Below are positions 2,471-46,129 of a stretch of DNA of 64,000 bases, in pieces. The DNA comes from an uncultured Bacteroidales bacterium (GTDB lineage: Bacteria; Bacteroidota; Bacteroidia; Bacteroidales; FEN-979), in NCBI GenBank assembly GCA_903945175.1, contig CAJAUM010000089.1:62001-126000 (forward strand). The letters run 5' to 3'. Within the stretch, counting starts at the first letter, position 1. Each line of letters begins with the position of its first letter. The notes beneath the pieces are model-generated. The model worked only from the letters and a program-made list of their open reading frames with translations. It was not told where the DNA came from and did no database searches. The translations under genes and the position numbers were made by a program.

Positions 2471-2471
2471 C

Positions 2472-5695: not shown

Positions 5696-5757
5696 AATAA
5701 AAGGTGCCGGCCCAATGATTTAATCTGCTAATTTTGCTGAAAAATGACAACCTAAGA

Positions 5758-6963: not shown

Positions 6964-7059
6964 TGCGTGATGCATGACATGTAGCGCGTGACAAAACAAA
7001 TGAAAAGTTTGAGTTAGAAGACATAGAGGGAAAGAGGAGAAACGTAAAAAGGATTAACA

Positions 7060-9622: not shown

Positions 9623-10286
9623 CATCTTTGTCCTTTTATTTGCCGGTTGTGTCTCGGTGAAACCGGCAAAGCTGACACGTGACCCGTCACAGATAACCAG
9701 GAATAATGTCATCCATCAACCATTGCAGGTCATACCCTTTTCATCCCGCTTTCTGCTTTTCAAAGCCTCCCTGGATATTAAAAAACATCACCTCACCGGT
9801 TTGTTGGTTATCAAACGCATGGATTCACTCATTGATGCAGGAAATCCAGGCAGGGGCATCCGGCCGGTATACCGGATTGTGTTCGCAAATGAAATTGGCA
9901 TGACCTTCTTTGATCTGGAACTGACTTGCGACAGTTTAAAAGTCATTTCCTGCTTTGAGTCATTGAATAAGAAGGCCCTGATGAAAATTTTCAGGACTGA
10001 TTTCCTGTTGTTAACTGGCATGGACACCATGACAGAAAAACGTTTTTACACGCAATCACCAACAAACAATCTGGTTGTTTTTGGAAAAGCAGGAAAGCTT
10101 AAAAGCTGGCAGACTTTTTCGCCATCAGGCGACACACTCATCAAAACATCAGGAAAATCAACCATAGCCGATCCGGTGATCATCTCCTATCTGAAGTATG
10201 AAAAAGGATTTCCAACAAGAATTACCGTAGAGAACCCATTTATCAGCATGAAATTGACGATGAGATTATTGAATCGTAAACCATAA
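9600..10286 (+). CDS. predicted outer membrane lipoprotein of the ketosynthase cluster
   Basis: The frame is open from 9480, but the ATG at 9600 gives a proper lipoprotein signal: Met-Lys-Asn, a hydrophobic core, then the lipobox LFAGC, with the Cys about 16 residues in. About 228 residues, no TM segment after the signal, mostly beta-rich. It overlaps the LolA-like gene by 23 nt, suggesting that the two act together, the lipoprotein perhaps receiving product at the outer membrane. I do not recognise a named family with certainty; DUF3261-type proteins occupy this place in proteobacterial aryl polyene clusters. Last gene of block 1. Confidence 0.72.
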   Translation: MKNSWFISIFVLLFAGCVSVKPAKLTRDPSQITRNNVIHQPLQVIPFSSRFLLFKASLDIKKHHLTGLLVIKRMDSLIDAGNPGRGIRPVYRIVFANEIGMTFFDLELTCDSLKVISCFESLNKKALMKIFRTDFLLLTGMDTMTEKRFYTQSPTNNLVVFGKAGKLKSWQTFSPSGDTLIKTSGKSTIADPVIISYLKYEKGFPTRITVENPFISMKLTMRLLNRKP

Positions 10287-30560: not shown

Positions 30561-30664
30561 GAAAAAAAGGATTGGCTAATAAATGTTCTATTATGTATGA
30601 TCTGTAAAGATAATTCAAAAACAATTCCTAAGATTGATTATCGGCAGTTTTTCTTTTATTTTTT

Positions 30665-30672
30665 TACCTTTG
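30665..30672 (+). promoter_or_regulatory. candidate Bacteroidota -7 element of block 3
   Basis: TACCTTTG matches the Bacteroidota -7 consensus TAnnTTTG, 30 nt before the ATG at 30703. No TTTG/TTG -33 element at the proper 17-23 nt distance is visible; the nearest TTG is 28 nt upstream. The gap 30561-30702 separates divergent operons, so a promoter is expected here. Confidence 0.45.
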
Positions 30673-30702
30673 TCATGTTACATTAGACTAAATAAACCAG
30701 GA

Positions 30703-31089
30703 ATGCTGTTTGATGATTTTTTTGAAATAGTTTCAATAACGTGCAATTTCGTTGGAGAATCCGAACAAAAACTCCAGTCGGTCATACTATTAAGACCCAA
30801 CCACCCGATTTTTGCCGGCCATTTTCCGGGGAACCCCGTGGTTCCTGGAGTATGCCAGGTACAAATGATCAAAGAACTGGTTGAAAAGGCGTTGAACCAT
30901 CCGCTCAGACTTTATGAGTCGGACAACATTAAGTTTTTATCGATGATCGATCCCCGCGGAACAACCCAGCTTGAGGTTGAAATAAATATCAAAAAAATTG
31001 CAGAAAATCAATATAGTGCCAATGCTTTGATCAAATTTGAATCTACGGTATGTTTAAAATTTAAAGGGAAATTCGAAATCGAATCATAA
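30703..31089 (+). CDS. FabZ-like hotdog protein, altered catalytic Glu
   Basis: About 128 residues of the 3-hydroxyacyl-ACP dehydratase (FabZ/ApeI-like) hotdog family. The active His loop is clear: HPIFAGHFPGNPVVPG. In FabZ the following helix supplies a Glu (VLxxEA); here it reads GVCQVQMIK, with Gln instead. It may therefore be a diverged dehydratase or a binding protein. The ATG at 30703 (MLFDDFFEI) is chosen over the frame opening at 30634, whose extra residues look like untranslated leader. The next gene overlaps its stop by one base (TAATG). Confidence 0.8.
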   Translation: MLFDDFFEIVSITCNFVGESEQKLQSVILLRPNHPIFAGHFPGNPVVPGVCQVQMIKELVEKALNHPLRLYESDNIKFLSMIDPRGTTQLEVEINIKKIAENQYSANALIKFESTVCLKFKGKFEIES

Positions 31090-31478
31090 TGTCGAAAAAA
31101 ATGACAATTACCTTTTCAGCCCGCGGCTATGAACTCGATTCATATGGTCATATCAACAATTCGGTTTACCTGAATTATTTCGAACATGCACGGTGGGAGT
31201 TTTTTCGCGGGTTGGACGTGTACAGCTTTTTAAAGGAAAATGGAAATCTTCCTGTAGTTACCGATATACATATCCGATATCAGCGGGAAATCAAGTTATT
31301 CGATGTGCTGACAATCGAATCGTTTTGTTTTCAGGAAAAACCTTATCTTATCTTTCAGCAAAAAATCACCAATAACACTACGCACATGACCTCAGCCAGG
31401 GCAACAACCAAATTGATATTTCTCGATACAGATAAGATGGCCGGAGATGTTCCGCAAGAGGTCCTGGATAGAATTTAA
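31089..31478 (+). CDS. hotdog-fold acyl thioesterase (4HBT/FatA-like)
   Basis: A 129-residue 4HBT-type thioesterase: the motif ELDSYGHINNSVYLNYFEHA carries the active Asp and the HxNN-Y-x-x-YFE helix. It is a second, independent thioesterase of the locus, distinct from 870-1283. It may release the finished acyl chain of block 3 or remove stalled ones. It overlaps the FabZ-like gene by one base and is 11 nt before the first enoyl-CoA hydratase. Confidence 0.86.
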   Translation: MSKKMTITFSARGYELDSYGHINNSVYLNYFEHARWEFFRGLDVYSFLKENGNLPVVTDIHIRYQREIKLFDVLTIESFCFQEKPYLIFQQKITNNTTHMTSARATTKLIFLDTDKMAGDVPQEVLDRI

Positions 31479-31489: not shown

Positions 31490-32242
31490 ATGAGCCAGAT
31501 TGATTTTGCAACATTTGAAATACTTAACGAAGTGGGGATTATCACCCTGGATCTTCCTCCGGGGAATTATTTACCGATCCCCGGGTTTATCCCGTTAAAA
31601 ATATTTAAACAATGGATTGGCTCAGATCATCTCAAGGGGCTGATCATCAGAGGACGGGGTAAAAATTTTTCAGCTGGTGGCAATCTTGAACAACTTTTTA
31701 AAGAAAGTGGTCCCCCAGATACCATGCAATGCCTTATGAATGAAGGAATTGAACTTCTTAATTGCATTCAGAACCTCGAAATTCCTGTTATTTCCGTCAT
31801 CAGCGGGGTATGCTTTGGGGGAGGATTGGAAATTGCACTGGCATCTCACATCAGGGTGGCTTCTGAAAATGCCCTGCTTGCATTTCCTGAGGTGAGCCAC
31901 AACCTGATGCCTGGCATGGGAGGAACTGTCCGGCTTCCAGGTGTGATTGGATGGTCCTACGCAGTCAATATGATCCTGGGCGGTGACATCATAAACGCAA
32001 AAGCCGGCAAGGAAATGGGGCTGATCGATTATATTGTACCCAAAGACCAGCCATTCACCTTTGCGCTGAACCTGATGCAAAAAATGACCCGCGACCGTCC
32101 GTTGAAGGTGATTAAGTCGATCATGAAATCGTTGAAGAATGCAAGGACACTCAGCCCTGAAGCAGCCATGGCAGAAGAAACAAAGCTTTTTTGCAAGTTG
32201 GCTGCAGATGAAGCCGAACGCCGTAAAACTGAGGAGGCCTGA
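31490..32242 (+). CDS. enoyl-CoA hydratase/isomerase family protein, copy 1
   Basis: A 250-residue crotonase-fold enzyme. The oxyanion segment GKNFSAGGN is present, and both Glu residues used by hydratases are visible: one in GGGLEIALAS and one in FPEVSHNLMPGMGG. It could hydrate or dehydrate an acyl thioester, or decarboxylate if used in a beta-branching set. It is immediately followed by a second family member, a pairing also seen in beta-branching (ECH1/ECH2) cassettes; see the findings. The start is ATG 31490. Confidence 0.9.
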   Translation: MSQIDFATFEILNEVGIITLDLPPGNYLPIPGFIPLKIFKQWIGSDHLKGLIIRGRGKNFSAGGNLEQLFKESGPPDTMQCLMNEGIELLNCIQNLEIPVISVISGVCFGGGLEIALASHIRVASENALLAFPEVSHNLMPGMGGTVRLPGVIGWSYAVNMILGGDIINAKAGKEMGLIDYIVPKDQPFTFALNLMQKMTRDRPLKVIKSIMKSLKNARTLSPEAAMAEETKLFCKLAADEAERRKTEEA

Positions 32243-32245: not shown

Positions 32246-32887
32246 ATGATGATTCACTGGATGATAGAAGGAGGGATCGGGCACTTGAAGCTGAATCAGC
32301 CACCATCGAATACCATGACCATGGACTTCTTCCGCGAAATGCGGGATTTGGTTAATAAAATTAAGTATGCTCCAGGGTTGAAGGCGATTATCATTCATGG
32401 CCATGGCCGGCATTTCTCTTCCGGAGCTGACATCAATGAATTATTGGACAATGTGGATGAACAGGCCATGCTTGAGAACCATCGTTTGTTTGCACAAATG
32501 GAGCAGTTTAAGATTCCTGTGATTTCAGCGATCAGAGGTGTTTGCATCGGATCGGCCTTTGAACTTGCACTTTTCAGCCACTTCCGAATTTGCTCCGAAG
32601 ATGCCGTCCTTGGATTACCTGAGTCAAACTTTAATCTCATGCCTGGCATCGGAGGCATCCAAAGGGTAGCCAGGCTTGCTGGAAGCGCAAAAGCGATTGA
32701 AATTACACTTAGGGGCAACACATTTCCTGCTGAGGATGCCTTGAAAATGGGGCTTGTTGATGTTGTGGTTCCAAAGGGAGAGGTACTGCCGCTGGCACTC
32801 ATTTTTGCCAGGGAACTGCCCGAAAATATTGATATTGAATACCGGGCTTTTTATCTTCATAAATATATAAAACCTTTGAATGCATAA
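32246..32887 (+). CDS. enoyl-CoA hydratase/isomerase family protein, copy 2
   Basis: A 213-residue crotonase-fold protein, shorter than usual (about 260) because the C-terminal helices are trimmed. The oxyanion motif GRHFSSGADI and both Glu positions (SAFELALF, LPESNFNLMPG) are kept, so it should be active. Its ATG follows copy 1 by 3 nt, and the next gene overlaps it by 8 nt (ATGCATAA). A missing C-terminal part often alters trimer packing or substrate size. Confidence 0.88.
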   Translation: MMIHWMIEGGIGHLKLNQPPSNTMTMDFFREMRDLVNKIKYAPGLKAIIIHGHGRHFSSGADINELLDNVDEQAMLENHRLFAQMEQFKIPVISAIRGVCIGSAFELALFSHFRICSEDAVLGLPESNFNLMPGIGGIQRVARLAGSAKAIEITLRGNTFPAEDALKMGLVDVVVPKGEVLPLALIFARELPENIDIEYRAFYLHKYIKPLNA

Positions 32888-34004
32888 TCAGCATAGCGAA
32901 ATATATGTCAGGGTGGCCGGCAGCGGCTCCTTTCTTCCCGGATTACCCATCCCTGCTGACGAAGTTGATTACTTCCTGGGAGAACTGACTGAGGCTCCGG
33001 TGAAGATCAGAAAATGGCTCAAACGCATCAGGATCTTGATGAAAGAGCTTATTGAAGTCGAATATTATCATTTCGCACTGGACCCGGTTACCAGGAAATT
33101 CACGGAAGACAATGTGACCATGGCGACAAAAGCCGCAACGGCAGCCATTGCTGATGCCGGATTAACGGCCCGCGACATCGATCTGATTGTATATGGGAGC
33201 GCCCACCAGGACCAGATGCCAACGGCCAGTGTCCGAATCCAGGAAGCTCTTGGGATTGAGCAGTGCGCTGAAATTTCAGTGCACGCCAATTGTACTTCAG
33301 CATACAAGGCATTGCTGCTTGGTTCCGACCTGATTCGCAATGGCAGATATAAAACTGCGCTTGTCATATCCTCTGGCATTTCGTCGTCGGAATTGGTTGC
33401 TGAATATTACAATCAGCCACTTGTGAAGAAGGAGGAGCTCTTTTTACGTTATTTTTTAAGCGATGGCGCTTCAGCCATTGTATTGCAGGCAGCCGATGTC
33501 TGTGCCGACGGATTATTTATAGAATATAACTACATGGAATCCATCGGGGGGATGAAACCATCAGCCATGGGAAATAAACGTCCCGCCTATTTTATGAATC
33601 CCAGGGAGGAGTTTGAACTGGGATATCACCATCTGGCCCAGATGTTTCAGGAGGAGTTGCGCGAGAATTTTCATGATGAGGAGGGATCGGTATTCCTGAA
33701 AGGATTGAAGCGGATGCTTGTCAAGCACCCGGTTGATCTGGACAAAATCAGATTCTTTCAGATCAATTTTCCCTCCAAACATATCTCTGAACTGATCATG
33801 GACGAATGTGCTGAATTGGGAATTCCCCGGGAAACGCACTATTCAAAAATGGCCGAGATGGGATATATTGGCCCCCCAATGGCCCTGTTATGCCTTGATA
33901 AAATAAGGAAAGAGGAAAAACTTGAACCCGGAGAAATAATTCTGAGTTTTGTAACAGAGGTCAGCAAATTTATGCAGGCGGGATATGTTATTAAAAAATG
34001 GTGA
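32880..34004 (+). CDS. KASIII (FabH)-like thiolase-fold protein, unusual active site
   Basis: A 374-residue FabH-type protein. The nucleophile is kept: Cys138 in VHANCTSAYKALL. Where FabH has HQAN the sequence reads FFQINFPSKH, and where it has GNTSAA it reads GYIGPPMALL, so the usual His and Asn appear changed. It may use a different base or act as an acyltransferase (CerJ-like) and not as a decarboxylating starter enzyme. HMG-CoA synthase-like chemistry was considered but the match is poor. It probably selects the starter unit of block 3. Confidence 0.82.
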   Translation: MHNQHSEIYVRVAGSGSFLPGLPIPADEVDYFLGELTEAPVKIRKWLKRIRILMKELIEVEYYHFALDPVTRKFTEDNVTMATKAATAAIADAGLTARDIDLIVYGSAHQDQMPTASVRIQEALGIEQCAEISVHANCTSAYKALLLGSDLIRNGRYKTALVISSGISSSELVAEYYNQPLVKKEELFLRYFLSDGASAIVLQAADVCADGLFIEYNYMESIGGMKPSAMGNKRPAYFMNPREEFELGYHHLAQMFQEELRENFHDEEGSVFLKGLKRMLVKHPVDLDKIRFFQINFPSKHISELIMDECAELGIPRETHYSKMAEMGYIGPPMALLCLDKIRKEEKLEPGEIILSFVTEVSKFMQAGYVIKKW

Positions 34005-34016: not shown

Positions 34017-36596
34017 ATGTCTGAAAAAAAACGATATACACTCTATCTGATCAGTCCACGCCAACGGTTTGTCAACTATCCGGCACACAGCGAAATGGCT
34101 AAAATGTTCGGAAAGCGGAGGCTGATGATTCCCCTTGCTTTGCCAACCATTGCCTCGCTAACACCTGATACCTATGATATCCGCATTTTTGATGAGGAGA
34201 TCGAGGAATTACCAAAAAACGGAAAGCCTGACATTGTAGCGATCACAACACTGGCCGCCACGGGGAAAAGGGCATTTGAATTGGGCGATGCCTATCGCGC
34301 CGCCGGTGCCAAAGTGGTTTTTGGCGGGCCCTACGCCTCCTTTATCCGGGAAGAGGCACTCAAACATGGCGATTGCGTTATTGCGGGTGAAGCCGAGGGA
34401 AAATGGGAACAATGCCTGACTGATTTTGAAAACGGTTGCATGAAGCAGGTCTATGAATCACAAACCTATGTAACGTATAAATCACAAAAACCTCCACGCT
34501 GGGACCTGGTCAACACAAAGCGGATTTTTCAGGTCGCCATCCAGGTTTCGCGCGGATGCCCATTTAACTGTGATTTTTGCCTTGTTTCCAAAAACTTCGG
34601 TCAAACAATGCGGTATCGTGACATCGCAAATGTGGTGGAAGAGATCAAAGCGGCCCCTTCAAAATATTTTTTCTTTGTGGACGACAACCTGACCATCAAC
34701 AAGAAATACGCAAAGGAGCTGATGCGGGCCATCATCCCTCTGAAAATTTCCTGGGGATGTATGTGCAGCCTGGATGTGGCAACCGATGATGAACTGCTCC
34801 GTTTGATGGCTGATGCAGGCTGTTTTAACATTCTGGTAGGTTTCGAATCCCTGAATCCTGACAGCCTTGATGAATCGCAAAAACACCATAACCGGGGCGG
34901 TAAGATATATGCAGAGGCCATCAATAAAATTCATGCTGCAGGTATTCATATCAATGCCAGTTTTGTCGTAGGATTCGACAGCGACACGCTGGATGAATTT
35001 GACCGGATTTTCGATTTTTCCATGAAGCACAATCTGCCCAATGTCAATCTGCATCTTTTAAATGCCCCGCCTGGAACCGAAACACACCGAAAATTAAGTG
35101 AGGAGGGACGACTGCTATCCTGTGACCCGGAATTGGGTGTCGGCCACTTCCCTACCCTGCAGTACATGAATATGTCGCAGATCGAGATTTTCGACAAATA
35201 CATGGAGACCATTACAAAACTATATTCTTTCGACACAATTCGGAAAAAGGGTGAAGCGCTTTTCTCCAACGGTGCATTTACACGGCCGGGCGGAGAAATA
35301 TCGGCTTTGATGAAAGCACGCCTCTCATGGATTACGTTCAAGGAATTTGTCCTTACCCGCGATCCTGACCGGAAAAAACTCTTTTTTTTCATCCTGAATC
35401 TTATCAGGACCAAGAAAATAGCCATTGATAAGGGTCTTGGATTCCTGCTTTCCATGTTGGGATATAACCGCCACATCAGGGCACATCAGCGAAACATGGC
35501 CGAATACCGGAGAATTGTCATGGCACAGGACAAAGGAGCATGGAAACAAAAGGCCATTAACCTTCAACCAACAAGAAAAATTCAAAAAATCGGGATCATC
35601 GGCGAGGGGAAAATGGGATCAGCCATTTTCAACTACCTGCTCGATTTCAACTTTGATCTGGTGTGGATATGCAGTTCTGATGCAGATACCGATAAAATTA
35701 TCCGGCAATTTGGCAAAAGAATCAAGCGGTCAATGGAGGCCGGAATAATTGACAGGCAGCGATTGGATGTTTTGATGCAAACACCTATCACCAAGAATGT
35801 TGTGGAATTGAATGACTGTGACCTGATCATCGAAGCAATACCTGAGATCCTGGATCTGAAACGAAACCTGTTTAATCAACTGGATACGATCGTCAAGGCT
35901 GATTCCATCTTCACATCCAACTCATCTTCCATTAATCCTTCAGCATTGGCCCCTCCAGGTGGCCGGAAAGTTCATTTTGCAGGTCTTCATTTTTTCTATC
36001 CTGTTCCGTTCAAAAATATTGTCGAATTCACCATAACCCCGGAGACTTCAAATCAAACGATCACTGCAGTGGAGGAATTCCTCCATGCCATTGGCAGGAG
36101 ATCTATCACCCTGGATGAAAAAAACAGTTTCATCCTGAACAAGATTTTTCTCGATTTTCAGAATGAAGCTTACCGAATCGTACTTGCCGGCAATTGTACC
36201 CATGCCCAGATAGATCAGCTGGTTAAAAAGCATTTTTTTCACTTCGGCGTTTTTGATTTCTGCGATAGTGTCGGAATTGACACGATGCTTGCTTCGATTC
36301 AGAATTATACACGCGATTATCCACATAAAGATTATTACGGTTCCTTCATTACCGCTCTAAATGACCTGGCGTTAGCCGGAAAATTCGGGGTCAAATCGCA
36401 GGAAGGTTTTTACACATATCCGAATGAGGGGGTCACTGACGAATTTCCTGCCGGATCTGACGGTATTGTTGAACATCTTCGTCAGACCTGGCTTTCGGCA
36501 TCAAAACGATATACTGCACAGTCACATCTCCCGATTGAAGATATGAACTGGGCCATTAAGGAGTATTTTAGCCTGGAAAAAGGACCATTTGAATAA
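34017..36596 (+). CDS. B12-binding radical SAM protein fused to 3-hydroxyacyl-CoA dehydrogenase
   Basis: An 859-residue fusion. Residues about 1-150: B12-binding-like Rossmann domain (no DxHxxG motif seen). 170-400: radical SAM domain with C181, C185 and C188 in RGCPFNCDFC and a typical GFESLNPDSL loop. 400-515: helical linker. 522-859: 3-hydroxyacyl-CoA dehydrogenase with the NAD motif GEGKMG (GxGxxG, 529-534), catalytic His658 in GLHFFYPVP and Asn in FILNKIF. One chain thus couples radical chemistry to ketone reduction or alcohol oxidation. It is 12 nt after the KASIII-like gene. No frameshift lies between the parts. Confidence 0.92.
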   Translation: MSEKKRYTLYLISPRQRFVNYPAHSEMAKMFGKRRLMIPLALPTIASLTPDTYDIRIFDEEIEELPKNGKPDIVAITTLAATGKRAFELGDAYRAAGAKVVFGGPYASFIREEALKHGDCVIAGEAEGKWEQCLTDFENGCMKQVYESQTYVTYKSQKPPRWDLVNTKRIFQVAIQVSRGCPFNCDFCLVSKNFGQTMRYRDIANVVEEIKAAPSKYFFFVDDNLTINKKYAKELMRAIIPLKISWGCMCSLDVATDDELLRLMADAGCFNILVGFESLNPDSLDESQKHHNRGGKIYAEAINKIHAAGIHINASFVVGFDSDTLDEFDRIFDFSMKHNLPNVNLHLLNAPPGTETHRKLSEEGRLLSCDPELGVGHFPTLQYMNMSQIEIFDKYMETITKLYSFDTIRKKGEALFSNGAFTRPGGEISALMKARLSWITFKEFVLTRDPDRKKLFFFILNLIRTKKIAIDKGLGFLLSMLGYNRHIRAHQRNMAEYRRIVMAQDKGAWKQKAINLQPTRKIQKIGIIGEGKMGSAIFNYLLDFNFDLVWICSSDADTDKIIRQFGKRIKRSMEAGIIDRQRLDVLMQTPITKNVVELNDCDLIIEAIPEILDLKRNLFNQLDTIVKADSIFTSNSSSINPSALAPPGGRKVHFAGLHFFYPVPFKNIVEFTITPETSNQTITAVEEFLHAIGRRSITLDEKNSFILNKIFLDFQNEAYRIVLAGNCTHAQIDQLVKKHFFHFGVFDFCDSVGIDTMLASIQNYTRDYPHKDYYGSFITALNDLALAGKFGVKSQEGFYTYPNEGVTDEFPAGSDGIVEHLRQTWLSASKRYTAQSHLPIEDMNWAIKEYFSLEKGPFE

Positions 36597-36633: not shown

Positions 36634-37026
36634 ATGAAAAAAATTATGTTTCTGTTCTTTCTGGCAATCAGCATATCGCTTGCCCTGATTTTAGTATTGA
36701 ACCCGCAGCCTGTCAATGGATCAAAGTACACCACTCCAGCTTTGCCGGGAACGGAATTACCTGACAGTGTCATGAAGGTCGTAAAGAAAGCATGCATGGA
36801 CTGTCATGCCGATGATGGAAATTTCATGGCAAAAGGAAAGGTTAATTTCTCCACCTGGGGATCCTATGATGATCAAAAGCAGATGAAAAAAGCAGCATCC
36901 ATCTGCAAACAACTGACCAAAAGTTCCATGCCACCCAAAAAATGGTGTGCCAATAATCTTGAGGCAGTTCCGACTCAGGCAGAAAAAGATGTGATTTGCA
37001 GGTGGGCGAATAGTTTACAAAAATAA
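36634..37026 (+). CDS. small exported c-type haem-binding protein
   Basis: A 130-residue protein with an N-terminal signal/anchor (residues 1-25) and a single CxxCH haem site, CMDCHADDG, near residue 55. Met residues in SSMPPKKW may supply the distal ligand. It resembles the Bacteroidota 'haem-binding domain' proteins with the pattern CxDCH...W...H/M. It would act outside the cytoplasmic membrane. Its place inside a lipid operon suggests electron delivery to a tailoring enzyme, or simple hitch-hiking. It is 8 nt from the next KS. Confidence 0.82.
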   Translation: MKKIMFLFFLAISISLALILVLNPQPVNGSKYTTPALPGTELPDSVMKVVKKACMDCHADDGNFMAKGKVNFSTWGSYDDQKQMKKAASICKQLTKSSMPPKKWCANNLEAVPTQAEKDVICRWANSLQK

Positions 37027-37034: not shown

Positions 37035-38249
37035 ATGTCTCAAGATGTCGTCATTACAGGGATGAGTCTTATTACATCCCTCGGTTTATCCTATGAGGAA
37101 AATTGGAAAAACCTTGTTGCCGGAAAAAGCGGCGTGAAGAATATTACACTGTTCGATGCCGGGGCGTTGGCTACCCGGTTTGCAGCAGAAGTTCCGAACG
37201 AGTTCGAGGAATTATCCAGGACATACATTAAAAAACGTGCCGCAAGCCAGATGACCCGCGTGACCCGGATGTGCGTTACCGCAGCTAAAATCGCAGTGGA
37301 AGATGCAGGAATCAACTTTGATCTGGCTGACCGTACAAGGTGCAGCGTGATCATCGGCGTTGTGAATACCGGAAATTCCAGCGCCGAAAAGGATACCTCC
37401 CCGCAGAATACGGTTTTTAAAACCATGACCAACTCAATGCCTGCCTGGATATCGCTGGAATACCAGTTGGCCGGGCCCAATTTTGCTGTCAATACCGCAT
37501 GTGCATCATCGGCCTATGCCATTGCATTCGGATTTGAGATGATCAAAAGCGGTCAGGCTGATGTGGTCATCGTCGGGGGTGCCGATTCCATCATTAACTT
37601 TGAGGAAATACAGGGATTCAACGCGCTGTACGCCCTGTCTGTGGCAAATGACACACCGGAAAGCGCCAGCAAACCATTCTCGCATGACCGGGATGGGTTT
37701 GTGATCGGAGAGGGTGCCGGGGTGCTGATCCTGGAGTCGAAAAAACACGCCTTGGCACGCAATGCCCGCATCCATGCCGAAATAGCAGGATATTCCCTGA
37801 CAAGCGAAGGTTACAATATCATGGCACCCATGAAAGATGGCGAAGGCATGGCCCAAACCATGGAACTTGCCATTAAAAATGCTGGGATAAAAAAAGAGGA
37901 TGTCGGGTACATCAATGCACATGGGACCTCTACTGAATTGAACGATCGTTATGAAACCATGGCCATCAGGAAGGTTTTTGGAGATTTTGCCAATCAGGTT
38001 CCTGTCTCCTCCTCGAAATCCATGCTTGGCCATACCATCGGCGCTGCCGGCGCCATTGAGGCAATCATAACGGTACAAAGTCTCAAATATGGCATCCTGC
38101 CGCCAACCATCAACTATCTGCAGCCTGATCCGGACCTTGATCTCGATTTTGTTCCAAATGTGGCACGTCCAAAGAAGATCAGGTTTGCTTTGTCAAATTC
38201 ATTTGGATTTGGCGGTCACAATGCAACCATCGTTCTAAAAAAAATCTAA
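37035..38249 (+). CDS. beta-ketoacyl-ACP synthase II-like (FabF type)
   Basis: A 404-residue ketosynthase with all catalytic residues: Cys156 in VNTACASSAYA, His in NAHGTSTELND and His in MLGHTIGAAGA. It looks closer to standard FabF than the block 1 enzymes do. With the ACP and acyltransferase that follow, it forms a small elongation set in which malonyl loading, carrier and condensation are encoded side by side. It has no Cys-less partner next to it. Confidence 0.92.
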   Translation: MSQDVVITGMSLITSLGLSYEENWKNLVAGKSGVKNITLFDAGALATRFAAEVPNEFEELSRTYIKKRAASQMTRVTRMCVTAAKIAVEDAGINFDLADRTRCSVIIGVVNTGNSSAEKDTSPQNTVFKTMTNSMPAWISLEYQLAGPNFAVNTACASSAYAIAFGFEMIKSGQADVVIVGGADSIINFEEIQGFNALYALSVANDTPESASKPFSHDRDGFVIGEGAGVLILESKKHALARNARIHAEIAGYSLTSEGYNIMAPMKDGEGMAQTMELAIKNAGIKKEDVGYINAHGTSTELNDRYETMAIRKVFGDFANQVPVSSSKSMLGHTIGAAGAIEAIITVQSLKYGILPPTINYLQPDPDLDLDFVPNVARPKKIRFALSNSFGFGGHNATIVLKKI

Positions 38250-38288
38250 CCTGAAATTTTGCGAAAAAGTTTATTTTTGCAAAAAATA

Positions 38289-38609
38289 ATGAAAAAACTC
38301 ATGGCTACAATCACTGAAAAGACAAAGGAAGAAGTCAAAGAGGTCGTTTATAGTTTTTTTGCTGAAGAATGTGAAGTCGATATTGAACAAATCAATGAAA
38401 ACACCAGTATTATAAAGGATCTCGATGGAGATTCACTGATGTTCCTTGAACTGATTGAAATATTCAAGAAAAAATACAACCTCGATATTGAATTGAAAGT
38501 CATTGGCAAGTATGCTGTAAAACACCCGGTTTCAACCATCGGACAATTGATCGAAATGCAATTGCTTATCATTGAGCATGAAAACCGGCTATTGGATATT
38601 GAACCGTAA
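38289..38609 (+). CDS. acyl carrier protein
   Basis: About 107 residues with the attachment site KDLDGDSLMFLEL (Ser near residue 49). The DGDSL form differs from the LDS forms of the other two ACPs here and may direct it to the adjacent KS. The start could be ATG 38289 (MKKLMATITE) or 38301; the open frame extends to a TTG at 38259, which I reject because that stretch looks like leader. A TATTTTTG word lies at 38272. Confidence 0.9.
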   Translation: MKKLMATITEKTKEEVKEVVYSFFAEECEVDIEQINENTSIIKDLDGDSLMFLELIEIFKKKYNLDIELKVIGKYAVKHPVSTIGQLIEMQLLIIEHENRLLDIEP

Positions 38610-38623: not shown

Positions 38624-39538
38624 TTGTCAGACAATCAATTAGCATTTATTTTCCCTGCTTTTACCAGCGACTATACTAATCATCCCGGTCACGGTATTCC
38701 AGGTTTTGCACTGCAATTTGACACCTTCCTGCGAACTGCTTCAAACAAGGTTGATCCATTGCTTAAGGAGTTTACGTTTACCGGAAATACATTCCTTGAG
38801 GATGAATTACTTACCCAGTACCTCACCTATATTTACAGTTGCGCATCCGCTTCTGCATTGAGAAATCTTGGTTTTTCTCCATCAATGAATGCCGGTTACA
38901 GCATGGGTATCTATGCTTCTCTTTTTGATGCAGGATCTGTTTCGTTTGAGACCGGACTGGAACTCATCCGACTGGCCTTCCAATCGCTGAAGATGGCCAT
39001 CAGCAGTGCCTCATTCGGAATGGTTTCGGTCATTGGCCTGAGCGGTAGAGACATTCACCATCTGATTGATCAATACGATCTTCGGGTGGAGATTACAAAC
39101 CAGAATGCATCGCCTTCCTTTGTCTTATCTGGTTTTCTTGACGATGTCATGGCGTTCATGAAACTGGCAATGGAAGAAGGGGCCCTGCACACACGCGATT
39201 TGGGAGTCTCCATCCCTTATCACGCCAGCTTTTTAAAAGAGGGCGCAAAGCATTTCGGAAAATTGATCAGCAGCCTGGAAATAAAACAGCCGGAAAATAA
39301 GATCATTTCCATGATTGATCAAACATTGTTATTAACCCCTTCAATTATCCGTCAGGAGTTGATTAACAACCTCTATTATCCGCTAAACTGGTTCCGCACC
39401 AAACAAGTCATGCTTGAACATCAGGTTTCGGTCTTTGTAGAATGTGGTCCATCAAAAGGGCTCACAAAGAATTCAAAATTCGTTGAAGGGAATTTCCGTT
39501 TTTACTCGTTAAATTCTTTTCCGCTAAATCAGATTTAA
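38624..39538 (+). CDS. malonyl-CoA:ACP acyltransferase-like protein (FabD fold)
   Basis: A 304-residue acyltransferase domain. The nucleophile elbow is GYSMGIYAS (Ser93) and the catalytic His is in IPYHASFL (His200), as in FabD. The usual N-terminal GQGS-type oxyanion motif is replaced by FIFPAFTSDY, and the Arg that binds the malonyl carboxylate in FabD (GRSLG context) is not obvious, so the substrate may not be malonyl-CoA. The start appears to be the TTG at 38624, 14 nt after the ACP stop; no closer ATG exists. Confidence 0.85.
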   Translation: MSDNQLAFIFPAFTSDYTNHPGHGIPGFALQFDTFLRTASNKVDPLLKEFTFTGNTFLEDELLTQYLTYIYSCASASALRNLGFSPSMNAGYSMGIYASLFDAGSVSFETGLELIRLAFQSLKMAISSASFGMVSVIGLSGRDIHHLIDQYDLRVEITNQNASPSFVLSGFLDDVMAFMKLAMEEGALHTRDLGVSIPYHASFLKEGAKHFGKLISSLEIKQPENKIISMIDQTLLLTPSIIRQELINNLYYPLNWFRTKQVMLEHQVSVFVECGPSKGLTKNSKFVEGNFRFYSLNSFPLNQI

Positions 39539-39571: not shown

Positions 39572-40912
39572 CTAAATAACATCTGTCCCCTTCTTTATCA
39601 ACCAAAGGGCACCAATGCGCCTGTGAAATTCATCATGCGGCAAGGTCGTCTTCATGACCGAATTGAAGAAATTATACTTTCGATAATTATGGTCCACTAT
39701 TTTATGTTTAACCTGCTGATAATAAACAGTTCCGGGCATCGGGGTCAGCACGGTGTAACCCGCAAACACAACACGATTTTTATCGGCGTAGTCCGCAAGC
39801 GCCTCAAAATCATGGTGCGTATAATCCGGTGGAACAACATAATTCCCACGGACCATAATCCCGTTTTGTTCAAATACCTTCACCGCCTCATGGTTGTCGA
39901 CTGCAGGAGAATCCTTATGATATTTCTTTAACTCTTCATCACGGAATGATTCAAACCCACAGATAACCACCTTCAGTCCGCCAAGGGCAAGCTTTTCGAT
40001 GATATCAGGTCTGTTCGCAGCTACATCAGCACGAATATCCATGATAAATGTTTTCCGAATTCCCTCCTCGCCAATTCTTTTGAAGAGATGCAAAATAAAC
40101 TGCAAATCCACTACGGTATTTGCATCTGCAAACCTTACCACCGGGTATTCATCAATGCCTTTCAATTCCGTAATCAGGCTTTCCACGCTGCGTTGGTAGT
40201 ATTTCCCCCTGAATTGAGACCAGATAGAACAAAAGGTGCATTTGTATGGACAACCCAGCGAGGTAAAAACATAGGTGGTGGGAAAAGGGCTGTCACCCAC
40301 CTTATACGTATCGATCCATCGCGAGAGATGACTGCGGTCGGGCAAAAGGTAATCAGCACCGGCTGCATCCCAGGCTACTGGTTTTCCGACAGTTCGTATC
40401 AGCCCTTTTTCAGAATTGATAAGAATACCGGGAATGGATTCAAATAAACCTCCCCTCTCCTTTACCTTTACAACCTCCCGGAAAATCTGCGGACACTGAC
40501 CGGGAATGATGATGTCAAAGGATGGATCGGTAAAGTCATCGGGACAGAGTGTAGCATGCAAACCTCCGGCTACCGTCAGAATCGAAGGATCGGTCAGTTT
40601 TACCGTTCTGCAAATATCTACGCTGAAATCAAATTCGGATGTGATCACCGTAACGCCAACCAGGTCGGGCTGATGTTTTTCTAGCAGTTCCCTTACCAGC
40701 ACATGGAGTTCAGGAGTATCCCGCATAAGATCATATTCCCCCTTGGTATCAAAAACAGTGACATCATGGTCTTTCACTGAAGCAGCAATGGTAAGTAATC
40801 CAAGTGGCGGACCGATCAGCCGCTTATGGATAAACCGCCTGGCCTCTTCCGGGGCGTACTTCAGTATGTTGTTTTCGGGAGAACGTGGCGGATTTATCAA
40901 CAGAATTTTCAT
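39572..40912 (-). CDS. B12-binding domain radical SAM protein (BchE-like)
   Basis: A 446-residue protein. Residues 1-145 form a cobalamin-binding-type Rossmann domain (MKILLINPPRSPE start; AGGLHATLCPDDF). The radical SAM domain has the CxxxCxxC cluster motif in LGCPYKCTFC, followed by a TIM barrel with GFESFRDEELKKY. It is the only gene on this strand between two plus-strand blocks, and its 3' end converges on the acyltransferase gene. Members of this class do methyl transfer, ring formation or oxidation on unactivated carbon; the reaction here is unknown. Confidence 0.9.
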   Translation of the reverse strand: MKILLINPPRSPENNILKYAPEEARRFIHKRLIGPPLGLLTIAASVKDHDVTVFDTKGEYDLMRDTPELHVLVRELLEKHQPDLVGVTVITSEFDFSVDICRTVKLTDPSILTVAGGLHATLCPDDFTDPSFDIIIPGQCPQIFREVVKVKERGGLFESIPGILINSEKGLIRTVGKPVAWDAAGADYLLPDRSHLSRWIDTYKVGDSPFPTTYVFTSLGCPYKCTFCSIWSQFRGKYYQRSVESLITELKGIDEYPVVRFADANTVVDLQFILHLFKRIGEEGIRKTFIMDIRADVAANRPDIIEKLALGGLKVVICGFESFRDEELKKYHKDSPAVDNHEAVKVFEQNGIMVRGNYVVPPDYTHHDFEALADYADKNRVVFAGYTVLTPMPGTVYYQQVKHKIVDHNYRKYNFFNSVMKTTLPHDEFHRRIGALWLIKKGTDVI

Positions 40913-41052
40913 CGCACAAATTTAATCAAATCTCCAAGAAAGGCAGCACCCACCTGTCAGGGAGTACGCTTATCCTGAAAGTGTATATGACGGTGTTGAT
41001 GAAAAATCCTATATTTGTTCCAGTAAAACTGTCATTACTGTTTACAGAAACT

Positions 41053-42240
41053 ATGCTTGACTTGAACCTGATGCGGCAAAAATTCGCAGAACTTCAGTGT
41101 TGCATCATCATTCCAACCTATAACAACGACCATGCCCTGGAAGATGTTATCAATGGGGTTTTACAATATACCCTTGATGTGATTGTAGTGAACGATGGGT
41201 CTACAGACAAAACCCCGTTTATCCTTGAGCAATTTCCTCAAATTCAGTCACTCCATATTCCTTTGAATACAGGCAAAGGCTGGGCTTTACGCCAGGGTTT
41301 CATACATGCTATTGAAAAGGGATACAGGTATGCCATTACCATTGACAGCGACGGTCAGCATTTTCCGGACGATTTGCCCCTGTTCCTTGATTTGATTGAG
41401 AAACAACCTGACTCCATGATTCTCGGAGCCCGTGATATGACAAGAGAAGAGGTGCCGGGAACCAGCAGCTTTGGTCATAAATTTTCAATTTTCTGGTTTA
41501 AAATTGAAACCGGAATCACCGTACTGGATGTTCAGACAGGTTATCGCCTCTATCCTCTTCACAAAATCAAGGAGATCAGGTGGGTGATGTCGAAGAAGTA
41601 TGAGTATGAGGTTGAAATTCTGGTCCGGTTGGCCTGGCGTGGTGTCAATGTACTTTCAGTTCCGGTCAGGATCTATTATGCCCCTAAGGATATCCGTATT
41701 TCTCATTTCAGAAAATTCAGGGATTTTACCAGGGTAAGTATCGCCAACAGTTTGCTGGTATTCATGGCCATTCTATGGGTGCGTCCCTTGTCCTTCTTCA
41801 AGGGACTTCGGAAAAAATCGATCCGTGACTTCATTCAGGAATATATTGTTAACAGCCAGGATTCAAATTTAAAAATTGCTTTTTCTGTGGCCCTCGGACT
41901 ATTCATTGGTGTCATACCCATTTGGGGATGGCAAATGCTGGCCACCTTTGGTCTTGCACACCTGTTTAAACTAAATAAATTTGTGGCTGTTGCCTCTTCA
42001 AATATCAGTTTACCTCCGATGCTGCCTTTGATCATCTTTTTAAGCTACATGATCGGCGGATGGGTTATGGGCGCAAATATATCGAACCTTGATTACAGTC
42101 AAGGATTTGGAATACAGTGGATAAAGGAAAACCTGATACAATACTTGCTGGGGAGCCTGATCCTTGGGTTGATGTTTGCCCTGTTTTTAGGCCCTGTTAC
42201 CTACCTGCTTTTATCCTTTTTCAGAAAAAAGAATGTCTGA
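41053..42240 (+). CDS. family 2 glycosyltransferase with C-terminal DUF2062 membrane domain
   Basis: A protein of about 395 residues. The N-terminal GT-A domain has IIIPTYNND, VVNDGSTDKT and IDSDGQHFPDD (the nucleotide- and metal-binding DxD-type motif). The C-terminal 150 residues are a DUF2062 domain with three or four TM segments (FSVALGLFIGVIPIWGWQML). This exact fusion recurs in flexirubin/aryl-polyene-like clusters of Bacteroidota. It probably glycosylates the lipid product at the membrane. I chose the ATG at 41053; the frame opens at 40885 inside the opposite-strand gene, so the longer form is unlikely. It overlaps the next gene by 8 nt. Confidence 0.88.
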   Translation: MLDLNLMRQKFAELQCCIIIPTYNNDHALEDVINGVLQYTLDVIVVNDGSTDKTPFILEQFPQIQSLHIPLNTGKGWALRQGFIHAIEKGYRYAITIDSDGQHFPDDLPLFLDLIEKQPDSMILGARDMTREEVPGTSSFGHKFSIFWFKIETGITVLDVQTGYRLYPLHKIKEIRWVMSKKYEYEVEILVRLAWRGVNVLSVPVRIYYAPKDIRISHFRKFRDFTRVSIANSLLVFMAILWVRPLSFFKGLRKKSIRDFIQEYIVNSQDSNLKIAFSVALGLFIGVIPIWGWQMLATFGLAHLFKLNKFVAVASSNISLPPMLPLIIFLSYMIGGWVMGANISNLDYSQGFGIQWIKENLIQYLLGSLILGLMFALFLGPVTYLLLSFFRKKNV

Positions 42241-45200
42241 TTTCATTGTATATATATACCGGTTTTTTCAAACAAAAAAGACATTTTTCTATGTTCTTCT
42301 CGCGCTGGTTTCCGTTTCAATCATCCTCCTGGCTTCAAAAATCAGGTTTGAAGAGAATATCTCGGGTTCAATTCCAAAAAATGATGCGCATGACCTGACG
42401 GGATATGTGCTGGCAAACCTGAATCAGACAGATAAAATAATTGTTGATATTTCCCTGGCAGACTCAAACAGCCAGCCTGAGCCTGCAGCGCTCGTCGCTT
42501 TTGGTCAGTCATTTTATGATTCCCTCAAAGCAAGACTTGATTCTACCCACATCAAATCGATACTTTACAAAGCATCGGATGAAACCATGCTGGCCATGAT
42601 GGATATGGCACTGAATCATTTGCCATCCTTCCTCGATGAATCTGATTATCTGAAAATCGACAGTTTGTTGTTGCCAGGGTATGTCGAACAGTCGATGGTC
42701 AATAATTACAAGATACTGGCCTCCCCTGCCAGCATGGTTTTGAAAAAAAGAATTTCATTGGACCCTTTGGGCATAACGAACTTTGCAATTGTCAAACTTA
42801 AATCGTTGCGCGCAGGAGAAAATTTTGAACTCTATGATGGATGTGTGGTCACCAGGGATATGCGACATCTCCTGATCTTTATAGAACCTGCCAGCCCTGC
42901 GAATGAAACATCTGCCAACAGGTATCTTATCAATCGTTTGGATGAGATCATCCTGGCGCTTTCAAAAACGAATGGTGAAAAATTTGAAGCCCAGTATTTC
43001 GGGGGTGCTGCAGTTGCCGTCGCCAATGCCCGGCAAATCAAGAGGGATATTGCACTGACCATGATCATCTCCTTCGGATTGATCTTTATCCTTGTTGGCT
43101 GGTATTTTAAAGATCTCCGCGCCCGTCTCCTGGGATTGCTTCCTGCTGTTTTTGGCGCAGGATTGGCTTTGGCCATGCTCTATCTGTTCAAAGGAAGCAT
43201 ATCAGCGATCTCTCTGGGCATAGGATCTGTAATTCTTGGATTGATCGTCGATTATGCGATGTATTTCATGAACAATTACAGGAAATCGGGCCATATTGAA
43301 GAGGCCATAAGGGATATGTCATATGTGATTTTATTGTGTGCTGTAACTACCGCGGGAGCCTTGCTTTGTCTGACATTTCTGAATTCTACGGTACTGCGTG
43401 ATCTTGGATGGTTTGCCACCCTAAGTGTTGTCGGAGCGGCTATATTTACGTTAATCATTCTTCCCCAGTTTGTTCATTTTGTCTCTTTAAAACAACCAGA
43501 GACCAAATCCGGGAATTTCATTGACCGATTGGGATCGTATCCTTTCCACCGGAAGAGCTGGTTGTTGATCATCATACTAATTATCGCCATTATCAGCGCC
43601 TTTTTCGCGGGGCAGGCCTCTTTCGAACAAGACATGAATGCGCTTAATTTCATGACACCTTCATTGAAAAAGGCCGAATCAGACCTGGACCGTATCAGCA
43701 ATTATAAACTCAAAAACGTATTTCTCGTTTCAACCGGAACAACAACAGAAGCTGCTTTGCGCAACCACGATCGGCTGGCGCCAACCATCAGAACCCTTTT
43801 AAGAGATTCCATTATTCAGGGTATTTCTGATGCGGGTCCCTTGTTAACCTCTGATTCGCTGCAGCAGGTTAGGATTCATCGGTGGAATTCTTTCTGGAGT
43901 AAAGAAAAGAAGGACAAGTTGACCTATACGATCTCAGTAGCAGCAAGCAAAGCAGGGTTCAATGAATCTGCCTTTCGTCCCTTTTTCACCTATCTGGATC
44001 GCAATTTTCAACCAATTACGTTGGAGATGCTTGATCTTAAAGAAAATCATCTGGTCAGCGGTTGGATCACCATCAAATCTGACAGGGTGCTCCTTCCAAC
44101 CATTCTGAAAGTCAAAGAAGAAAACAAAGAGGCGTTGTACCAGGCCGTCCAGATCAATGATTCGATTGTAATGTATGATAAACAATCGCTGACAAGAAAA
44201 TTCGTCGAAGGTGTAAAAAATGATTTTGACCGTCTGGTTTTGCTTTCTATGGTTTTTGTCACACTCCTGCTGATCTTTTCATATGGCAGACTGGGACTTG
44301 GTCTTATAACAGCCCTGCCGATGTACGGGAGCTGGCTGATCACCTTAGGGTTCATGGGTATTACCGGTAACACCTTCAATATCTTCAATATTATATTGTC
44401 GTCGTTCATTTTTGGACTGGGAGTTGATCACAGCATCCTGGTCATGCGCGGATTGCAACGAACTTTAAAATATGGAACAGACGAATTATCCTCATACAGG
44501 GTCTCAGTCATTTTATCCTCAGGGGCAACCCTGTTCGGAGCCGGGGCACTTTTCATGGCTCAGCACCCTGCGCTGCATTCCATTGCGCTGATTTCCCTTT
44601 TTGGTATGATCACCGTGGTTATTTTATCTTTTACCCTGCAGCCGTGGCTCTACAACAAGCTTATCCTCGAACGCAGCCGCCGGCATCGATTTCCGGTCAC
44701 GTTGCGGATCGTTATTAAAACATTTGTGACATGGGGAAATATTGTGGCCATTGCGGTGATCCTGATGATCCTTGGAAGCTTGATCAATATACTGCTGCCA
44801 ATGAAGCGCAAAAAAAAGGAGATGCTCTTTCACCGGCTATTTTACTGGCTTACAAAGGCATACATCGCATTTACCTTTGCCTGGGACCGAAAACTGATCA
44901 ATGAACCCGGTGAGGATTTTACCAAACCTGCCATCATCATCAGCAATCATCAAAGCCTGATTGAAACACCTGCATTCCTGCGATTATACCCGAAAATAAT
45001 CATCCTGACAACCTCCTGGGTCTATCGGTCGCCAATTTTCGGACCCATTGCCCGGCTTGCGAATTTTTACAACGTCGACACTGGGATTGAAAGCATCATT
45101 GATCTGCTGAAGGAAAAGGTGAATGAAGGCTTTTCAATCCTGATTTTTCCCGAAGCCCATCGTTCATATGATCAGCATATCCAGCGTTTTCACAGGGGGG

Positions 45201-46129
45201 CATTTTACCTTGCTGAAAAACTACAGGTTGACATTTTACCCATTTTGGTCTTCGGCACCGGGGATTTTTTGGGGAAAGGGGCATTCTGGGGAAGGCCCAA
45301 CAGTTTCAGGATGAAGATACTTAGCCGGGTCCCCTGTGATGATCTCTCATTCGGAAATTCCTACCAGGAGCGGTCCAGGAATTTACGAAAGTTTTACATT
45401 ACCCAATATGCGCAATTTAAAGCTGAGGAGGGGAACGCACATTATTACCGCCGGAAGCTTGCGCTGAACTATACACTGAAGGGTCCTATACTTGAATGGT
45501 ACATGCGGGTTAAGCTGAAACTGGAAAACAACTATGAAATTTATAACCAGCTCATGCCTCGCGAGGGTGAAATTCTTGACCTGGGGTGCGGATATGGATT
45601 TATCTCCTATATGCTTATGTTCACTGGGGATGAGCGAAAAATTACCGGGGTTGATTACGATGCTGAAAAAATCGAGGTGGCCGAAAATTGTTATTCGAAA
45701 AATGAGCGGATCAGTTTTTTTTGCCAGGATATTTCAGAATATAAAGTGACACCTAAAAATGGATTTCTTCTCTGTGATGTACTTCATTATCTTACTCCTG
45801 AAAAGCAGGAGAAATTGCTCAGGGATTGCTTTTCTAATTTGCATCCCGGTGGTACAATCCTTATCAGGGAGGCAAATGCAGAACTGGAAAAAAGACACAA
45901 AAAATCATTGGTTACAGAATTTCTCTCAACGAGAATCGGTTTCAATAAAACCCAAACAAACGATAAGCAACTCTTTTTTACATCTGCCGACGCAATTAGA
46001 GCTGTTGCTGTAGAGTTTGGCCTGACCATGGAGGTCATTGACAATAAAAAAGTTACGTCGAATAACCTTTTTGTCTTGAAGCACAAGCACCCTGGCTCGC
46101 ATGGTGAAGGAGGGACGGTTCATGGATAA
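42233..46129 (+). CDS. MMPL-family exporter fused to acyltransferase and methyltransferase
   Basis: A 1298-residue three-part fusion. Residues 1 to about 850: RND/MMPL transporter with two sets of TM segments around two periplasmic loops (GLIVDYAMYFMNNYR and FIFGLGVDHSILVMRG are the paired family motifs). About 860-1080: PlsC-like acyltransferase with SNHQSLIET (H-x4-E rather than H-x4-D) and FPEAHRS. About 1090-1290: SAM methyltransferase with LDLGCGYGF. This layout occurs in polyene/flexirubin-type clusters of Bacteroidota. It probably esterifies, methylates and exports the lipid. The N-terminus overlaps the glycosyltransferase gene by 8 nt. Confidence 0.92.
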   Translation: MSDFIVYIYRFFQTKKTFFYVLLALVSVSIILLASKIRFEENISGSIPKNDAHDLTGYVLANLNQTDKIIVDISLADSNSQPEPAALVAFGQSFYDSLKARLDSTHIKSILYKASDETMLAMMDMALNHLPSFLDESDYLKIDSLLLPGYVEQSMVNNYKILASPASMVLKKRISLDPLGITNFAIVKLKSLRAGENFELYDGCVVTRDMRHLLIFIEPASPANETSANRYLINRLDEIILALSKTNGEKFEAQYFGGAAVAVANARQIKRDIALTMIISFGLIFILVGWYFKDLRARLLGLLPAVFGAGLALAMLYLFKGSISAISLGIGSVILGLIVDYAMYFMNNYRKSGHIEEAIRDMSYVILLCAVTTAGALLCLTFLNSTVLRDLGWFATLSVVGAAIFTLIILPQFVHFVSLKQPETKSGNFIDRLGSYPFHRKSWLLIIILIIAIISAFFAGQASFEQDMNALNFMTPSLKKAESDLDRISNYKLKNVFLVSTGTTTEAALRNHDRLAPTIRTLLRDSIIQGISDAGPLLTSDSLQQVRIHRWNSFWSKEKKDKLTYTISVAASKAGFNESAFRPFFTYLDRNFQPITLEMLDLKENHLVSGWITIKSDRVLLPTILKVKEENKEALYQAVQINDSIVMYDKQSLTRKFVEGVKNDFDRLVLLSMVFVTLLLIFSYGRLGLGLITALPMYGSWLITLGFMGITGNTFNIFNIILSSFIFGLGVDHSILVMRGLQRTLKYGTDELSSYRVSVILSSGATLFGAGALFMAQHPALHSIALISLFGMITVVILSFTLQPWLYNKLILERSRRHRFPVTLRIVIKTFVTWGNIVAIAVILMILGSLINILLPMKRKKKEMLFHRLFYWLTKAYIAFTFAWDRKLINEPGEDFTKPAIIISNHQSLIETPAFLRLYPKIIILTTSWVYRSPIFGPIARLANFYNVDTGIESIIDLLKEKVNEGFSILIFPEAHRSYDQHIQRFHRGAFYLAEKLQVDILPILVFGTGDFLGKGAFWGRPNSFRMKILSRVPCDDLSFGNSYQERSRNLRKFYITQYAQFKAEEGNAHYYRRKLALNYTLKGPILEWYMRVKLKLENNYEIYNQLMPREGEILDLGCGYGFISYMLMFTGDERKITGVDYDAEKIEVAENCYSKNERISFFCQDISEYKVTPKNGFLLCDVLHYLTPEKQEKLLRDCFSNLHPGGTILIREANAELEKRHKKSLVTEFLSTRIGFNKTQTNDKQLFFTSADAIRAVAVEFGLTMEVIDNKKVTSNNLFVLKHKHPGSHGEGGTVHG

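Follow-up and report, generated by a model that had tools for sequence, protein, structure and literature searches.

A B12-type radical SAM protein and a 3-hydroxyacyl dehydrogenase as a repeatedly joined gene pair in a flexirubin-type cluster of an uncultured Bacteroidales bacterium

Most cobalamin-dependent radical S-adenosylmethionine (SAM) enzymes are presumed to be methylases, with HpnJ and BchE listed as non-methylases (PMC13142503, in excerpt). According to the same excerpt, BchE, the anaerobic Mg-protoporphyrin monomethyl ester cyclase, converts the β carbon of a propionate ester to a hydroxyl and then to a ketone without O2 and without methylation, the oxygen coming from water, as proposed from isotope studies; it is described as performing all oxidations itself, and the excerpt mentions no fused dehydrogenase (PMC13142503). 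The radical SAM enzyme AprD4 works with a dedicated NADPH-dependent reductase partner, AprD3 (PMC5461906, in excerpt), and published flexirubin clusters contain darA and darB (PMC3992019 and PMC3949708, both in excerpt). Here, we describe a gene in which a B12-type radical SAM protein is joined to a 3-hydroxyacyl dehydrogenase (HADH). The gene occupies positions 34017–36596 of the plus strand of a 64,000-nt stretch (hereafter, the window) of contig CAJAUM010000089.1, from assembly GCA_903945175.1 of an uncultured Bacteroidales bacterium. No description of such a fusion was found in a text search of one open-access literature collection, in agreement with an earlier note, made from the DNA sequence alone, whose author knew of none.

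The gene is a single open reading frame (ORF), open from ATG to stop and coding for 859 amino acids, exactly where the earlier note had claimed an uninterrupted frame. Pfam domains follow each other in the order B12-binding, Radical_SAM, 3HCDH_N, and 3HCDH. The B12-binding match (residues 54–129) is marginal, at 33.3 bits against a cut-off of 32.1, and partial, covering model positions 35–116 of 121. Radical_SAM (residues 175–334) scores 71.4 bits against a gathering score of 29.5 (E 1.3e-19), which places the first half in the radical SAM superfamily. 3HCDH_N (residues 524–699) scores 124.8 bits against 22 (E 4.8e-36), and 3HCDH (residues 705–801) 55 bits against 22.1 (E 1.2e-14). The N-terminal half, residues ~1–512 (34017..35552), which is a separate gene of ~515 codons in most relatives, carries the CxxxCxxC motif as C181/C185/C188, and all three cysteines are invariant in the 26 rows of its alignment; the motif is thus as intact as had been claimed. 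A linker of residues 514–519 (35553..35570), modeled with low confidence, leads to the C-terminal HADH half (35571..36596). In the full-length model (mean predicted local distance difference test score, pLDDT, 82.8), the domains are acceptable one by one, while a predicted template modeling score of 0.58 leaves their arrangement unfixed. A Foldseek search with this model returned only HADH-type entries among the best 50 matches and was uninformative on the radical SAM half.

The same two proteins were then looked for elsewhere. In a presence survey of 61 genomes (37 of the window's family and 24 of the same order), both halves were encoded side by side in 35 of the 37 family genomes, which excludes chance as the cause of their joining. 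The two remaining family genomes were G018, with HADH only, and G015, with neither at that level (best E 2.0e-62). None of the 24 same-order genomes gave a match better than E 1.9e-66 (40% identity). In a scan of GTDB genomes, from which the best 79 loci were kept, 40 loci (L009–L048) matched the first half at ≥55% identity, 39 with Bacteroidota-type titles and one (L041) alphaproteobacterial. Among distant relatives of the radical SAM half (55–58% identity), L039 has the pair and L043 ends at a contig end just after the radical SAM gene. In L047, an HADH gene (29%) lies within the same cluster, on the opposite strand and not adjoining the radical SAM gene. In L040, the radical SAM relative overlaps a gene for a short-chain dehydrogenase/reductase (SDR) of the 3Beta_HSD/Epimerase type, again an NAD(P)-type oxidoreductase though of another family than HADH, and no cluster genes lie in the stretch examined.

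The junction was read in 42 distinct pairs (40 including the window, plus L147 and L150; L148 and L149 coincide with L013 and L045). Seven are joined (the window, L010, L011, L012, L027, L029, and L036), and 35 consist of two adjacent genes on one strand in the same order, radical SAM and then HADH. Further genes that looked joined, in G005, G019, G020, G021 (L123), and G031 (L019), proved to be separate when the DNA was read, each having a stop codon behind its radical SAM portion. Where the genes are separate, the first protein terminates shortly after a KGAWK-like end: 32 of 33 such genes stop within 20 codons of the last aligned residue, the exception being L046. The distance between the aligned ends of the halves is 26–291 nt in separate pairs (320 in L046, whose first half is aligned only in part), and in 5 of 33 the HADH part starts no later than the stop codon of the radical SAM gene. 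The distance is 229 nt in the closest relative, L020, against 39 nt, in frame, in the window; the six other assemblies with joined genes have linkers that differ from that of the window.

Trees were built for each half, with 41 rows for radical SAM (L045 and L046 omitted as short) and 38 for HADH (L019 and L028 omitted as short). On both, the nearest relative of the window gene is L020, which is separate (support 98/91 and 89/82, respectively). The trees force at least three changes between the joined and separate states for radical SAM and at least four for HADH, counts that cannot tell gain from loss. Outside the clades that contain joined genes, the rows show two genes. The simpler assumption is accordingly joining rather than splitting; the single-chain form is probably derived, and that of the window probably recent. 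The fusion, then, is a repeatedly joined state of a conserved gene pair and not an enzyme class of its own, as one chain is found in 7 of the 42 pairs and not across the family. The earlier note's view of the fusion as an enzyme stands insofar as the protein is real and both catalytic sets are intact, and does not stand as to a class of its own, with 35 pairs separate.

The HADH half combines both Pfam domains of the 3-hydroxyacyl-CoA dehydrogenase superfamily with its Ser-His-Glu-Asn set. Asn635, Ser637, Ser638, His658, Glu670, and Asn708 are invariant in 35 of 35 aligned rows; we take these to include the known catalytic residues, their positions coming from an alignment with solved HADHs. 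The dehydrogenase is therefore complete with catalytic His and Asn, as had been noted earlier. Its separate model (mean pLDDT 94.2) has as its first Foldseek match 1f12, an L-3-hydroxyacyl-CoA dehydrogenase with 3-hydroxybutyryl-CoA (TMt 0.83), and the first matches in general are L-3-hydroxyacyl-CoA dehydrogenases and FadB-type proteins. The half thus shares its fold and catalytic Ser, His, Glu, and Asn with HADH, bacterial Hbd, and the C-terminal part of FadB. It differs from them in a C-terminal extension that runs ~50 residues past the Pfam domain, in a fusion partner that is radical SAM here and enoyl-CoA hydratase (ECH) in FadB, and in that the whole protein reaches the cut-off of no NCBIfam family among the best 25 of its 43 matches. 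A further difference concerns the cofactor. Solved HADHs aligned across the site have an Asp after the second strand; the window protein has Cys552, and an acidic residue is present at this position in none of 35 rows (Cys 19, Val 8, Gly 4, Ser 2, Leu 1, Ile 1), with a Ser directly after it in 30 of 35. The family thus lacks the mark of an NAD-specific HADH. The missing NAD-selecting acid suggests that the half uses NADP(H), which would point to a reductive, biosynthetic direction.

The radical SAM half passes the cut-off of none of its 25 NCBIfam matches and belongs to none of these families. The scores are 100 bits for HpnJ (cut-off 577.6), 87 for BchE (481), 59 for HpnR (650), 58 for TIGR04072 (360), and 51 for AprD4 (500). 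A profile of the half matched only three solved sequences, the best being AprD4 (6fd2, E 4.4e-17), a rank that says little with three matches. HpnJ, a hopanoid radical SAM protein and the best NCBIfam match, belongs to a different pathway. BchE, the second-best match and likewise a B12-type radical SAM enzyme, is the nearest worked and most instructive analogue, though the half scores far below its cut-off and BchE is described as performing all oxidations itself. That a radical SAM enzyme can have a reductase of its own as partner is exemplified by AprD4 and AprD3; they differ from the window protein in being separate proteins with an aminoglycoside substrate, and AprD3 is of the SDR type.

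We propose, tentatively and short of calling it probable, that both halves act on one acyl intermediate in a coupled manner, at C3 or close to it, and our first candidate for the radical reaction is BchE-like oxidation. Two enzymes, normally made from adjacent genes of one operon, would here work in a single chain within a flexirubin-type (aryl-polyene) pigment pathway. The HADH half would interconvert 3-hydroxyacyl and 3-ketoacyl thioesters, probably with NADP(H), beside two ECHs and an acyl carrier protein (ACP). The radical SAM half, presumed to bind cobalamin, would attack C3 of the same carrier-bound intermediate, or a position close to it, either creating or removing the oxygen function on which HADH works. 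The setting would be free of oxygen, such a life of the host being assumed from the enzyme class. Candidate radical reactions are BchE-like oxidation, methylation, and AprD4-like dehydration. A shared intermediate is supported by the repeated joining of a nearly always adjacent pair. The earlier note had held that the fusion implies a radical carbon on the same acyl chain as the β position; this is a fair inference from the conserved pairing but is not implied by the fusion, and its strict form has against it the HADH of G018 without radical SAM, the SDR partner in L040, and the non-adjacent genes of L047.

The joined gene lies in a tight operon (30634–39538, intergenic gaps of −8 to +37 nt), with all genes on the plus strand. 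The operon opens with a FabA/FabZ-like hot-dog dehydratase (30634..31089, below NCBIfam cut-offs) and a 4HBT/YbgC-like thioesterase (31089..31478). Two ECH family proteins follow (ECH1, 31490..32242, and ECH2, 32246..32887); both expected Glu residues are present in each and retained in 34 of 34 rows for each protein. With these Glu residues taken to be catalytic, both ECHs are apparently competent. Next comes a distant StlD/DarB-family ketosynthase-fold protein (32880..34004), immediately before the radical SAM-HADH gene. Downstream of the latter are a Haem_bd protein (36634..37026, CxxCH seen in the translation), a β-ketoacyl-ACP synthase (KAS) of type II (37035..38249), the ACP (38259..38609), and a malonyltransferase-like protein (38624..39538). 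In 34 of 39 loci, the plus-strand ORF that immediately precedes the radical SAM gene is the DarB-like one; of the other five, three start with the radical SAM gene, and L040 and L047 differ. The haem protein gene directly follows HADH in 31 of 39 loci, four more end there, and it is also retained in G018.

The DarB-like protein scores 107 and 91 bits on StlD/DarB models with cut-offs of 450 and 550, with a range of 86–91 bits for the DarB relative on the latter. Compared with four DarB proteins, the Cys (Cys138) is kept in 34 of 34 rows, while the His is replaced by Asn (Asn296) and the Asn by Tyr (Tyr329), again in 34 of 34 each. We take Cys, His, and Asn to be the catalytic set of the ketosynthase fold; as His and Asn are lost, the standard decarboxylating reaction is unlikely, and a Cys-only acyl transfer may be catalyzed instead. 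An HMG-CoA-synthase-type β-branching cassette (ECH, ECH, ketosynthase-fold protein) was considered and rejected, since HMG-CoA synthase models score ~35 bits against 91–107 for the DarB type.

The operon is part of a flexirubin-type cluster. FlxY, the flexirubin acyl-CoA ligase, is encoded in the window (61359..62663, plus strand, 717.5 bits, cut-off 520), and the lyase FlxA (829 bits, cut-off 700) and the reductase FlxB (399.6 bits, cut-off 340) lie upstream on the same contig (L090), FlxB ~8.4 kb before the window start. The earlier note, with coordinates confined to the joined gene, left out this decisive context. After the operon come a second B12-type radical SAM protein on the minus strand (39572..40912; nearest HpnR, 140 bits, cut-off 650) and, on the plus strand, a family 2 glycosyltransferase with DUF2062 (40885..42240), a 1298-aa protein combining an MMPL exporter, an acyltransferase, and a methyltransferase (42233..46129), a CrtI/CrtD-like FAD protein (46101..47621), and a third B12-type radical SAM protein (49364..50635, 97% identical in G018). 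Beside the last, the genes at 53551–55359 and 50665–51051 have no Pfam match at E 0.001 and are 86% and 76% identical, respectively, in G018. An upstream pigment block (870..10286, plus strand) comprises a thioesterase (by reading), KAS-type proteins, a polysaccharide deacetylase, LolA, and LolB2_flexi (74.4 bits, cut-off 60). The KAS-type proteins starting at 1259, 3393, 4631, and 7060 were tested, and those at 2430 and 5734 were assigned by reading and by BLAST to other clusters. Two of them, at 4631–5695 and 7060–8163, are degenerate (36 and 57 bits on FabF), and each adjoins a fuller KAS-type gene, like chain-length-factor partners. Gas-vesicle genes on the minus strand (12769–23673), of which the three tested are GvpL/GvpF, lie beside a CDC48-type AAA gene and another AAA gene (GvpN-like by reading); they separate the two pigment-gene blocks, which in several other family loci, e.g., L011, L013, L014, and L016, follow each other without interruption.

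FlxA, FlxB, FlxY, and LolB2_flexi are common to this cluster and the flx/dar clusters of Chitinophaga pinensis and Flavobacterium johnsoniae, as are KAS, LolA, deacetylase, glycosyltransferase, and exporter genes, according to the excerpt of PMC3992019. The clusters differ in that no DarA was found in the window's family and that the DarB relative is distant and without its His and Asn; a flexirubin-type cluster with the DarA and DarB of a dialkylresorcinol (DAR) was thus not recovered. DarB passes its cut-off in 7 of 148 sampled genomes of the phylum. In four DarB loci (three of the seven and G077, just below the cut-off at 518.7), a protein of ~300 aa is encoded next, which we call DarA by its position after DarB; the one examined is named by neither a Pfam nor an NCBIfam model. 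NF053538 was discarded as a guess for DarA, being of another family and without a match anywhere. A DarA query found relatives in none of 41 family genomes and, as a control, in 8 of 8 DarB-bearing genomes, a comparison in which lineage and absence are confounded. The radical SAM half had no comparable match in seven DarB genomes searched, giving only two weak partial matches (29–30%, G159), the other matches being to the HADH half. In L141, DarA, DarB, and two small genes stand between an acyltransferase gene and XRE/BtrH/ABC genes. On the window's contig, upstream of the window, the equivalent slot holds a radical SAM gene (L090:14118-15482) that passes TIGR04072 (rSAM_ladder_B12, "lipid biosynthesis B12-binding/radical SAM protein") at 428 bits against 360. 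Compared with DarB-bearing genomes, the window's cluster has a TIGR04072 gene at the DarA-DarB position and an added ECH-ECH-radical SAM-HADH module. Direct ladderane synthesis was rejected, as the radical SAM half is far below the TIGR04072 cut-off, although that other gene of the cluster passes it.

In a proteobacterial metagenome-assembled genome, a canonical DarB gene and a BtrH-type gene stand in a row with two B12-type radical SAM genes (L070:9992-15531). Its DarB-family gene (554.8 bits, cut-off 450; His and Asn kept) lies directly behind both radical SAM genes, and the best DarA match in this genome is poor (26% over 134 residues). The locus independently hints at an association between radical SAM proteins of the B12 type and DarB-type enzymes. 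Type II fatty acid synthesis-like genes mixed with several radical SAM genes, one of them with a B12 domain, are also described in the ladderane and polyunsaturated hydrocarbon clusters of Kuenenia and Desulfotalea (Rattray 2009, PMC2649909, in excerpt). These resemble the present cluster in that mixture and in a phytoene-desaturase-like protein, a membrane protein likened to Mmp, and a CoA ligase, and the TIGR04072 member on the window's contig is a further likeness; they differ in that the excerpt mentions neither a radical SAM-HADH fusion nor an aromatic lyase. One further scheme would be a counterpart of the flexirubin pathway that runs without oxygen. The two ECHs, a DarB-fold acyltransferase working through Cys alone, a new radical SAM enzyme of the B12 type, and an NADP(H)-dependent HADH coupled to it would there take the place of the DarA/DarB step. 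We regard this scheme as rather unlikely.

Several observations weigh against coupled action of the halves. The strongest is G018, which retains the FabZ-like, HADH, and haem genes without radical SAM, ECH1, ECH2, or the DarB-like gene in a 20-kb stretch; the thioesterase, KAS, and ACP genes are likewise absent from that stretch. HADH is thus apparently able to work without radical SAM, which argues against obligate coupling. In addition, 35 of 42 pairs manage without fusion, HADH evolves about three times faster than radical SAM (median end branch 0.35 vs. 0.11), and the cluster already holds a FlxB-type ketoreductase. The presence of FlxB on the same contig also weakens the idea that HADH is the missing FabG of the operon, an idea kept alive by G018. 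The B12-binding match is only marginal, the radical chemistry cannot be read off because all scores are far below the NCBIfam cut-offs, and, given the loss of His and Asn in the DarB-like protein, the pathway may form no DAR-type ring.

Coupled action at C3 has to be weighed against other explanations of the pair. The radical SAM half could be a cobalamin-dependent methylase adding a methyl branch, with HADH as the ketoreductase of the same chain-building cycle. We consider this unlikely, yet several points favor it: methylation is the presumed activity of most radical SAM enzymes that use cobalamin (PMC13142503, in excerpt), the flexirubin of Chitinophaga pinensis bears a methionine-derived methyl (PMC3992019, in excerpt), KAS, ACP, and dehydratase-type proteins are present in the cluster, and HADH persists in G018 with the FabZ-like protein and without radical SAM, as a plain ketoreductase would. 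Against it, the two top-scoring named families, HpnJ and BchE, are non-methylases in the same excerpt of PMC13142503, albeit with low scores that come mostly from the core, and two other methyltransferase-type proteins are already in the cluster (the C-terminal domain of the 42233 protein and, by reading, the protein at 55366). An accident of operon read-through, by which enzymes with separate substrates in one pathway were joined without functional coupling, would explain the 35 separate pairs, the lone HADH of G018, and the non-adjacent genes of L047; the three or more changes to or from the joined state, the adjacency in 35 of 37 sampled genomes, and the NAD(P)-type partner in L040 make us doubt it quite strongly.

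An AprD4/AprD3-like system, with dehydration of a vicinal diol or a comparable group to a ketone by the radical SAM half and reduction of that ketone with NADPH by the dehydrogenase half, would fit the rank of 6fd2 among solved matches, the NADPH reductase partner of AprD4 (PMC5461906, in excerpt), and the SDR next to the radical SAM relative in L040. Such a system is improbable, considering the low NCBIfam score for AprD4, the small number of solved sequences matched, and a diol that would not be expected in a polyene or alkyl precursor. Finally, the draft state of the genome (155 contigs) and the separate genes of the sister L020 raise the question of an assembly error across two genes in the window; such an error would need an in-frame loss of ~190 nt relative to L020, not of a single base, and six other assemblies are joined through other linkers. 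Misassembly or a one-base error was accordingly rejected as the main explanation, and we regard it as very improbable.

If coupled action on one acyl intermediate is correct, β-carbon radical attack and β-keto/hydroxy interconversion would be combined in one protein, a BchE-like reaction in fatty-acid-type biosynthesis. A substrate shared by both halves would make the pair a self-contained system for non-methylating action of cobalamin radical SAM enzymes on acyl thioesters, a question also open for ladderane lipids. The HADH half would then serve as a handle, since a 3-keto/3-hydroxy assay would report the position of the radical chemistry. For the family, a shared substrate would suggest how flexirubin-type pigment clusters may manage without DarA.

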